IMG/VR virus record: IMGVR_UViG_3300023181_000001
Span: 1-30,508 of that record
Direction: 5' to 3' (one strand)
Length of the DNA: 30,508 nucleotides
DNA from: a virus
Part shown: piece by piece, positions 19,189-29,844 of the stretch
Layout: each line of letters starts with the position of its first letter
Numbering within the stretch: position 1 is the stretch's first letter
The notes under the pieces: model-generated
Seen by the model: only the letters and a program-made list of their open reading frames with translations
Databases searched by the model: none
Told to the model about the DNA's origin: nothing
Program-made: the position numbers and the translations under genes

Positions 19189-19219
19189 CAAAGTTAAGTA
19201 TGTTGTTTTAATTTGCAAA
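19189..19219 (-). promoter_or_regulatory. Consensus promoter before scaffold and capsid genes
   Basis: On the - strand this reads TTTG (19219-19216), a 19-bp spacer, then TAACTTTG (19196-19189), fully matching the Bacteroidota sigma-A pattern TTTG-N19-21-TAnnTTTG. It lies in the 91-base gap between the portal stop and the scaffold start, one of the few true gaps in the late region. Transcription would begin near 19185 and run through scaffold and capsid to the terminator at 16283. Confidence 0.8.
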
Positions 19220-28195: not shown

Positions 28196-28227
28196 TTTGC
28201 TTAAAAGAATTAAATTTATTATCTTTG
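28196..28227 (+). promoter_or_regulatory. Consensus rightward promoter, 70-aa gene
   Basis: TTTG (28196-28199), a 20-bp spacer and TATCTTTG (28220-28227) match the Bacteroidota sigma-A consensus fully. The transcript would start near 28231, about 18 bases before the ATG at 28249. It is the first + strand promoter beside the divergent switch point. Confidence 0.8.
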
Positions 28228-28248: not shown

Positions 28249-28461
28249 ATGCAAAAAGACAAACTCGGATTCTTCGAGTATAAAGAAGTAATCTACGGTT
28301 TCTTAAATGAACTTATAATAAATTCCTTTGAAGAAGAAAAAAGAGAAGAAATCCTTTATTCGCTTTGGAGCAGTTATTATAGCAGCGAAGTTCGGGAAAT
28401 ATCAATAAAAAGAGATGCTCAGGTCTTAGAAACGGCTTTATTTTTCTTAGTGAAAGGTTAA
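28249..28461 (+). CDS. Small protein, 70 aa, probable early gene
   Basis: The ATG at 28249 is chosen over a TTG at 28225 because the latter lies inside the -7 promoter box. The protein starts MQKDKLGFFEYKEVIYGFLNEL and is helical and acidic (INSFEEEKREEILYSLWSSYYSSEVREI), ending in a hydrophobic helix (QVLETALFFLVKG). It has its own consensus promoter and another promoter follows it directly, so it forms a single-gene unit. Small, strongly promoted genes beside a divergent switch are often host-takeover proteins or regulators. The family is not recognised. Confidence 0.65.
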   Translation: MQKDKLGFFEYKEVIYGFLNELIINSFEEEKREEILYSLWSSYYSSEVREISIKRDAQVLETALFFLVKG

Positions 28462-28465
28462 ACTG

Positions 28466-28497
28466 TTTGGAAATTATCTTTTAAATCAGTACTTTTG
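28466..28497 (+). promoter_or_regulatory. Consensus promoter of primase-like gene
   Basis: TTTG (28466-28469), a 20-bp spacer and TACTTTTG (28490-28497) match both sigma-A elements. Transcription from about 28501 leaves a leader of roughly 135 bases before the ATG at 28638, far longer than the 12-18 base leaders predicted at the other promoters here. Confidence 0.8.
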
Positions 28498-28533
28498 TAC
28501 GTCAATTAGTAAAATCAGTTGTTGCTTATATTC

Positions 28534-28625
28534 TGGGAGGTTTATAGGAAAGTAACTTTAAAATAAATGATTGCCCTGCGTGATTAAGTCAACCTCCCAT
28601 TTAGACTTGATTATTGTGGGGTTTT
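28534..28625 (+). promoter_or_regulatory. Structured leader, possible attenuator or RNA switch
   Basis: TGGGAGGTT (28534-28542) pairs perfectly over 9 bp with AACCTCCCA (28591-28599), enclosing 48 bases that include AAAGTAACTTT. The AACCTC part (28591-28596) can instead pair with GGGGTT (28617-28622), which is followed by a T-rich stretch (TTTC, CTATTTTAT). The two pairings exclude each other, which is the layout of an attenuator. The second hairpin has a 20-base loop and one G-U pair, so it is weak. A non-coding RNA is an alternative. Confidence 0.45.
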
Positions 28626-28637
28626 TCTATTTTATAT

Positions 28638-29831
28638 ATGCTTAAAGAAAAAGATAATTTTTTTGTAAACACTTACAGAAATACAAAATCACCAACTGTA
28701 TTAAATACAATTTCTATTTATGAATGGTTTGAAAAGATCAAATCTTCGGAGTATTGTGATTTGATTACTTCTGCTAGGGAGGATGAAAATATCTATGACA
28801 TTACGAAACTTACCAAAATACCGTGCATAACTGTAAACTACTTATTTGACAAGTACAAGGAAAATAAAAATATAATTGAGGGGACTGGCTTAATGTATAT
28901 AGATATCGACGCGCCTGACTTTGACGTGACCATGTTGGAATTAAGCTCTGTGTTTGCTTTGTACAAATCTTTTGGGGGCAAAGGCTACTCAATCATAGTT
29001 AAAGTAGATGGCTTGACAGACTCAAATTTCAAAGAGACTTATTCCTATATTTGTTACGAGTTGGGTATCTCAGAGTATGTTGATAATTCTGCAATAAAGA
29101 TGACGCAGTTTAATGTATTATCATATGATAAAGATATATTAGTTAATCCTTTATCAAAGATATTTAAGAGTATTAATACCACCCCCCAATCTGAACTAAG
29201 AAGAAGAGAGAAGAAAGCATATAGCACAGAAGGGGGGGTGTTTGATGGAAATATACGTTTTAATAATAAAAATGATTATTTGAAAGATGATACTACTTAT
29301 GTCATAAATACTGACGGTATGCTATTCATAGAATGCAAACCTTTGTTTAAAAGGGTGGACACTAATAGGAATAATATCCTTCTCGCATACTGTACCAACC
29401 TTGTTATTTTAAATCCCCACATCTCTTTCAAGAGAGCTGAGTCAATAATGTCAAGTATAAATTCTCATAACTTTAATAATCCTGTCGATAAAGATTGGAT
29501 AAAAAGAATAGTTATTTCAGTATTTAAATATAAAGAGCAAGGGACTTTAGAACCCATATTTTCAAAGAAAAAAAGAATTGGCCTTTTTGGGAAAGAATGT
29601 GGTTTAGATAAATTGGAAATACTCTCAATAATGAGAGGAGTAATGTCCGAGAAAAGAAAAAAAGAGAGTATTCAAAAGCTTTATCAGATACTTGAAAATT
29701 GGGACTATTCATTTTTCGGAAATGTGTCACAAAAGAAAATATATACTAATTTTCCCATATCAAAAAAGACAGTAGAAAAATATTATAAAATAGTTAAAGA
29801 ACTCTTAAATGACTTTGATAATACATTATAA
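28638..29831 (+). CDS. Primase-like protein with VirE_N/BT4734-type domain
   Basis: The 397-aa protein has the VirE_N (BT4734-like) layout common in Bacteroidota phages and mobile elements, related to archaeo-eukaryotic primases. Residues 48-66 contain REDENIYDITKLTKIPCIT, then GLMYIDIDAPD with the acidic pair D89/D91 (85-95), SFGGKGYSIIVKV (111-123), and a closing region around DNSAIKMTQFNVLSYDKDILVNP. The C-terminal half (RNNILLAYCTNLVILNPHISFKRAE and on) is helical and may hold a helicase-linker or DNA-binding part. Start ATG 28638 avoids a TTG extension. It stands before a helicase gene, consistent with replication start. Confidence 0.75.
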   Translation: MLKEKDNFFVNTYRNTKSPTVLNTISIYEWFEKIKSSEYCDLITSAREDENIYDITKLTKIPCITVNYLFDKYKENKNIIEGTGLMYIDIDAPDFDVTMLELSSVFALYKSFGGKGYSIIVKVDGLTDSNFKETYSYICYELGISEYVDNSAIKMTQFNVLSYDKDILVNPLSKIFKSINTTPQSELRRREKKAYSTEGGVFDGNIRFNNKNDYLKDDTTYVINTDGMLFIECKPLFKRVDTNRNNILLAYCTNLVILNPHISFKRAESIMSSINSHNFNNPVDKDWIKRIVISVFKYKEQGTLEPIFSKKKRIGLFGKECGLDKLEILSIMRGVMSEKRKKESIQKLYQILENWDYSFFGNVSQKKIYTNFPISKKTVEKYYKIVKELLNDFDNTL

Positions 29832-29844
29832 ATTAGTATTTTTG
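29814..29844 (+). promoter_or_regulatory. Consensus promoter for 74-aa and helicase genes
   Basis: TTTG (29814-29817), a 19-bp spacer and TATTTTTG (29837-29844) match the consensus. The upstream element lies inside the last codons of the primase-like gene. The transcript would start near 29848, about 12 bases before the ATG at 29860. Confidence 0.75.

Follow-up and report, generated by a model that had tools for sequence, protein, structure and literature searches.

INTRODUCTION

In the replication-gene leaders of the plasmids pT181 and pIP501, the transcript chooses between an antiterminator and a terminator, with specificity set by RNA pairing. Pairing likewise drives the specificity of the CI RNA of phage P4 and of the C4 RNAs of phages P1 and P7. 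In the fluoride, ZTP and preQ1-I riboswitches the loop of a terminator-proximal hairpin pairs with the upstream leader, and phi29-type pRNA keeps two of its segments complementary in phages where the letters of both differ. The P4 CI RNA is processed from an untranslated leader and pairs with the seqA and seqC segments of that leader, leading to termination and turning the replication genes off (PMC4825925).

The element described here lies in a window of 30,508 nucleotides at the start of a 146,648-base IMG/VR virus record and, by analogy, appears to work most like the plasmid rep leader attenuators and P4 RNA immunity. As in P4, an untranslated leader of an early or replication unit holds a segment complementary to one farther upstream, with predicted termination before the genes (PMC4825925). 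CI is cut out of its transcript and has targets on either side, seqA and seqC; the element has a single partner, and its pairing segment sits in the loop of an intrinsic terminator. A search for a second, seqC-like target gave no further 10-base copy in the genome, and two close relatives lack the GGGGTT match seen in the window. The phages and hosts are also unrelated to those of the C4 antisense RNAs (RF01695); no match to that model was found at gathering score in the window or its relatives, and none at E<=10 in the leader. With no model match and no second target, the element falls outside the C4 family.

Further differences separate it from the other systems. Unlike in pT181 and pIP501, the opposite strand gave no sign of an antisense RNA, and the antiterminator arm is placed in the terminator loop rather than overlapping the 5' arm. 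Unlike in the riboswitches, the paired letters change completely among relatives; the arms and linker diverge freely, no conserved aptamer or ligand core was found, and the element has no match in Rfam. The pairing of phi29 pRNA is intermolecular and serves packaging; here an early leader carries the pairing ahead of a terminator, and nothing points to a role in packaging. We found no paper describing the element.

RESULTS

A consensus promoter drives a long untranslated leader

The first-pass annotation had placed a promoter ahead of an unusually long leader of about 135 bases, and both claims were borne out. The promoter (P2; Table 1) reads TTTG-N20-TACTTTTG, a perfect match to the Bacteroidota promoter consensus, and 140 bases separate its last base from the ATG of a primase-like gene, compared with 15-21 bases for the neighbouring and other well-placed consensus promoters of the genome (TTTG/TAnnTTTG sites at 19189, 22113, 28227, 29844 and 120538). 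Sites matching the consensus numbered 22 in the 146 kb, against 7.1 in base-shuffled sequence. No promoter was found in the window between the terminator described below and the primase-like ATG. A 6-codon ATG frame at about 28568-28588, seen by eye only, overlaps a terminator arm; no counterpart was noticed in the two close relatives, and inspection by eye likewise revealed no leader peptide conserved across relatives.

Around the element, genes point leftward as far as 28.1 kb and rightward beginning at 28.25 kb, and the GC skew turns over near 28.0 kb, at this strand switch. The terminase of the window phage has 34% identity to those of Cellulophaga phages phi17:2 and phi4:1 and more remote kinship to that of crAss-like csAssE; its portal and one head protein also match phage families. 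Elsewhere in the genome, at about 61976-62010 (L010:13976-14010, + strand), a match to the DUF805b RNA (RF02914) scored above threshold, at 40.6 bits.

Table 1. Features of the leader and its surroundings (positions in the window)
Feature	Position	Strand	Basis
P1 promoter, TTTG-N20-TATCTTTG, of the small 70-aa gene	28196..28227	+	consensus match; likewise present in L002 and L003
Small 70-aa gene, upstream neighbour of the element	28249..28461	+	amino acid identity 89-94% in L003/L002
P2 promoter, TTTG-N20-TACTTTTG, drives the leader	28466..28497	+	full consensus kept in 6/6 phages
Untranslated leader RNA	28501..28637	+	start at about 28501-28504 predicted from promoter position
Possible weak hairpin HP1, CUUAUA[UUCUGGGAGGUU]UAUAGG, S1a in loop	28525..28548	+	-0.9 kcal/mol, S1a open
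S1a, TGGGAGGTT, 5' arm of the putative antiterminator/pseudoknot helix	28534..28542	+	complementarity to S1b
S2a, 5' arm of the intrinsic terminator	28573..28590	+	folding
S1b, AACCTCCCA, partner of S1a; first nine bases of the 13-nt terminator loop	28591..28599	+	folding and complementarity
S2b, 3' arm of the terminator	28604..28621	+	folding
Terminator U-run, TTTTT	28622..28626	+	T-run kept in all relatives
Primase-like gene, BT4734-like N-terminal domain (PF08800)	28638..29831	+	26% identity to the L002 gene
Promoter of the gene after the primase-like gene	29814..29844	+	consensus match

The leader ends in a terminator whose loop is complementary to an upstream segment

Folding predicted a terminator hairpin of 18 pairs (28573-28590 with 28604 to about 28622) at -17.9 to -19.9 kcal/mol, the value varying with the choice of ends. 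This stable hairpin is followed directly by TTTTT, an arrangement kept in both close relatives, and the primase-like ATG begins about 11 bases past the U-run. The perfect complementarity between TGGGAGGTT and AACCTCCCA noticed at first reading was confirmed. The annotation had gone on to propose two competing hairpins sharing AACCTCCCA as an arm; here the first pairing stands and the shared arm falls, AACCTCCCA being the terminator loop. Its third segment, GGGGTT paired with AACCTC, does not make a stable second structure: the 18-pair terminator takes its place, the AACCTC pairing has no counterpart in the close relatives, and GGGGTT, which lies at 28618-28623 rather than 28617-28622, is the end of the terminator's 3' arm. 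The main hairpin of the leader is a terminator that the first reading had overlooked. Since AACCTCCCA is placed in the terminator loop, S1a and S1b would constitute a pseudoknot-type switch, not hairpins with a common arm.

A scan of the window's own genome for other looped terminators returned only this one as convincing. A kissing-loop version, in which S1a is presented by its own hairpin (HP1), was also considered; it is weak in three phages and unfavourable in two more (L022 and L025), and is at best a possibility.

Five relatives share the architecture with other arm sequences

Six phages were compared: the window phage, two close IMG/VR relatives (L002 and L003), two distant ones (L022 and L025) and Cellulophaga phage phi17:2. 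A terminase search recovered the close pair at about 81% identity, and a looser search added the distant pair at 35%, together with phi4:1. The large terminase genes of the close pair (L002:10001-13801 and L003:10001-13825) each carry an in-frame intein-like insertion, not alike in the two phages, and the window phage terminase is without it.

All five relatives have the promoter and the architecture of the window at the syntenic place, and the arm sequences differ in every one. The full TTTG-N20-TAnnTTTG promoter stands just before the element in 6/6 phages; the element directly follows a small gene in five and a tRNA array in phi17:2. In the close pair the small upstream gene, P2, the terminator (CCCTG...CGGGG and T-run) and the pairing of loop with upstream segment are all kept, with the letters of the arms changed to GTGGAAAGG/CCTTTCCAC and GTAGCACT/AGTGCTAC. 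The loop in these two phages and the window consists of S1b followed by TTTA, directly atop the stem. In the distant pair the stem is another one (ACCCTTGGG/CCCAAGGGT), the loop is larger and the arms are TAATAAGAG/CTCTTATTG and TGCTAGTCA/TGTCTAGCG. In phi17:2 the arms are CGCTGAG/CTCAGCG, in the loop of AAACCTACC...GGTAGGTTTTTTT. S1a lies 40, 45, 45, 45 and 45 bases upstream of the terminator stem in five phages, and 62 bases upstream in phi17:2.

The small 70-aa protein has its own promoter, always adjoins the element on the upstream side and could be a partner of the leader; in the distant pair a small protein of other sequence occupies its slot.

Other searches returned nothing further: a primase homologue search for relatives in IMG/VR and the phage collection, the leader as a DNA query against phages, and, on genome contigs, a looped-terminator pattern and a TerL profile. 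The exact 18-mer upstream of the promoter was found only in the close pair and in a chance coding match (L016). No convincing element besides the phi17:2 one was seen in csAssE-Sib, part of Lbo-JY46 and further stretches of phi17:2. Two Cellulophaga phages in culture, phi17:2 and phi4:1, also appear to carry the element.

The loop pairing is specific to each phage's own arms

Across the six phages, pairing of each arm with its own partner gave 52 of 54 pairs, the best of 720 permutations, while arrangements in which every arm was swapped reached a maximum of 28. Duplex energies ran from -7 to -14.5 for own arms and were mostly above -4 for foreign combinations. Each leader was also considered singly, the match of its loop to the upstream sequence being set against 20,000 dinucleotide shuffles. 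For the window alone, the 9-pair complement had p = 0.0026, and the six loci, taken one by one, gave 0.0026, 0.0078, 0.025, 0.029, 0.46 and 0.084; L025, in which one S1 pair is broken, is not significant by itself (p = 0.46). The pairing had first been seen in the window; with that locus left out, combining the others gave p = 0.0007, and 0.0012 when phi17:2 was also left out. Both values are approximate, L022 and L025 lacking independence, and the permutation test is the cleaner one. The compensatory changes proposed as a check on the first reading are thus found for the S1 arms, in the 52 of 54 own pairs and in double changes between L022 and L025. By comparison, the full 140 nt has only a modest folding advantage over shuffled sequence (z = -1.99); the real evidence lies in what the relatives conserve, not in whole-leader folding.

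A descriptor requiring the promoter, a stem, a T-run and a loop complementary to a segment 20-70 bases upstream was run over 0.88 Mb, both strands counted. It matched the sites in the window, L002, L003, L022 and phi17:2, and one further, likely chance site with a promoter-like sequence upstream; the L025 site fell below its score cut-off. Chance complementarity in an AT-rich leader would fit the modest single-locus p values (0.0026 to 0.46), but six loci with unrelated letters at the same position, the 1/720 permutation result and the double compensatory changes make it extremely improbable.

The terminators of the window clade reach -18 to -19 kcal/mol as + strand RNA and only -6 to -11 kcal/mol on the reverse complement, an asymmetry due to G-U pairs. 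This argues that the element is an RNA of the + strand, and against a DNA palindrome, cruciform or protein site. A DNA-level role, in which the hairpin pair or inverted repeat would mark an origin of replication or a site for primase or a repressor, would suit a position beside a primase-like gene and close to the gene strand switch and skew turnover near 28 kb. We consider it very improbable: besides the far weaker hairpin on the other strand, a T-run always follows, the arm letters change freely and the element persists where no primase lies downstream.

The unit behind the element varies

The L002 counterpart of the primase-like gene also has a PriCT_1 domain. In L003 the downstream gene encodes an unrelated 301-aa protein with no assigned function, and in L022, L025 and phi17:2 the element is followed by a conserved untranslated region of several hundred bases, with a ResIII-type helicase farther downstream (in phi17:2 under its own promoter). 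The helicase-like ORFs of the window phage and the close pair were recognised from translations only. The annotation's placement of the leader exactly before replication starts is therefore apt for the window and L002, with their primase homologues, and fails for L003, L022, L025 and phi17:2. Because the downstream unit varies, the element is not tied to the primase as such; in the window, where the next gene has its own promoter, the main target of an attenuator would be the primase gene.

The first gene past the element (28638-29831 in the window, and its positional counterparts in the close pair) is 26% identical or replaced, compared with 81% identity for the terminase and about 90% for the small gene. 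The slot after the element is a cassette-exchange slot.

The untranslated region, about 500-700 bases (L022:6160-6860, L025:6370-7080 and L020:4000-4535, all minus strand), is conserved in L022, L025, phi17:2 and phi4:1 and contains a hairpin (CACGG.TGGGAAT.CGTG / CGTAA.TGGGAAT.TACG) with three double compensatory changes. It has no Rfam match, and a DNA search of the window phage, L002 and L003 found none; it is a candidate large non-coding RNA. The L025 helicase gene (L025:3290-5890, minus strand) is interrupted in frame by an intein-like LAGLIDADG/homing-endonuclease domain that the L022 copy lacks.

The suggestion of a small RNA read from its own promoter proved an equally compatible description of the leader, inasmuch as predicted termination would release one. 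As a reading of the function it would mean that a stable, pseudoknotted RNA of about 125 nt acts elsewhere and that the downstream gene is served by leaky read-through. The element does have its own promoter and terminator, and with the downstream unit varying, the RNA is the constant part. However, the arms hold no conserved sequence fit for a shared target, the rest of the phage genome has no complement to them, and in every relative the unit directly downstream has no further consensus promoter. This reading is improbable.

A proposed transcription attenuator with its antiterminator arm in the terminator loop

Our preferred reading, to which we give a probability of roughly 0.6, is that the leader is a cis-acting transcription attenuator gating whatever unit follows, with the antiterminator arm displayed in the terminator loop. 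The terminator lies between a promoter and the first gene with no other promoter intervening, and the alternative pairing is conserved by covariation. The initial proposal of an attenuator or switch is accordingly well supported by the conserved promoter, the terminator with its U-run, the compensated upstream pairing and the lack of an intervening promoter. Judged from sequence, a genuine on/off control by RNA is very probable here, and the control is possibly specific to each phage.

RNA polymerase would start at P2 and synthesize S1a, S2a, S1b and S2b in that order. Before the 3' arm of the terminator exists, S1b could pair with S1a, forming the antiterminator. As S2b emerges, the terminator would form, stopping transcription about 11 bases before the start codon and releasing a short RNA of about 125 nt; alternatively, the S1 helix would delay or block the hairpin and polymerase would read into the primase gene. 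In the relatives, an equivalent switch would gate whichever unit fills the slot. We infer that termination is partial.

Folding of a nascent chain made to just past S1b gives the S1 helix a P of about 0.7-1.0. At equilibrium the complete RNA of the window, L002 and L003 prefers the terminator fold to the S1 fold by 7-16 kcal/mol. The succession of S1 in the nascent chain and terminator in the full RNA is as expected of an antiterminator acting during transcription, and the preference for the terminator fold means that antitermination in the window clade would have to be kinetic. In L022, L025 and phi17:2 the S1 fold of the complete RNA equals or betters the terminator fold. Because S1b occupies the loop and not the 5' arm of the terminator, S1 and the terminator need not exclude each other and a pseudoknot could form. 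By general pseudoknot geometry, 4 nt (TTTA) spanning 8-9 base pairs looks strained. In the window clade this strain, judged from loop lengths only, favours S1 as antitermination over full coexistence, and we hold with moderate confidence that S1 pairing opposes, rather than helps, termination.

In one phage pair the arms change faster than neutral sites

L022 and L025 share 94% identity over a 1-kb stretch, yet 12 of their 18 arm bases differ, compared with 79 of 947 bases outside the arms. At 4-fold degenerate sites in eight gene segments, 131 of 577 (23%) have changed, giving p = 1e-4 for the 12/18 in the arms; counted by pairs, 6 of 9 have changed (p = 0.006). Of the six S1 pairs that differ, five changed on both sides in compensation and one (G-C to T/T) is broken. 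Arms that change faster than neutral sites in one comparison and keep their complementarity bear the signature of specificity. The 50 bases between the arms hold 9 differences, so that a recombinational swap of the whole cassette is likewise possible; one phage pair cannot tell a swap from step-by-step diversification.

A trans-acting, allele-specific feedback would explain such fast change. Here the released leader RNA, with S1b in its loop, would pair with S1a of new leaders in the same genome pool or in a superinfecting phage of like type, keeping S1a from its antiterminator role and forcing termination. Such an RNA would act as a counter of genome copies and shut out phages with shared arms, and new arm pairs would be selected for. 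Several observations agree with this: the arms are orthogonal between phages, those of L022 and L025 outpace 4-fold sites, and the loop position frees S1b from the stem and displays it in the released RNA. The 146-kb genome contains no other 10-base match to S1b or to full S1a, leaving the leader itself as the only target there, and the CI RNA of phage P4 provides a precedent (PMC4825925). Against it, cis pairing is kinetically favoured, the fast arm change could be a single recombinational cassette swap, the second target (seqC) is not conserved and these phages look virulent. We regard trans feedback as rather doubtful, and retain the cis-acting attenuator as the preferred reading.

DISCUSSION

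The element is a conserved RNA control not yet filed in any family, and it occurs in large, distant relatives of the crAss-like phages, on whose RNA regulation almost nothing is known to us. Its apparent presence in the cultured phages phi17:2 and phi4:1 makes both the attenuator and the self-recognition readings directly testable.

Should the released RNA work in trans, the arms, as they change, would serve as tags of specificity. Carried further, and quite doubtful as it stands, virulent Bacteroidota phages may possess a self-recognition RNA code, in which the loop of the aborted leader pairs in trans and silences the early unit of genomes with the same arm pair. Were this true, arm diversity would be maintained because new pairs escape, and one sense-strand RNA would serve both to sense copy number and to exclude superinfecting phages.
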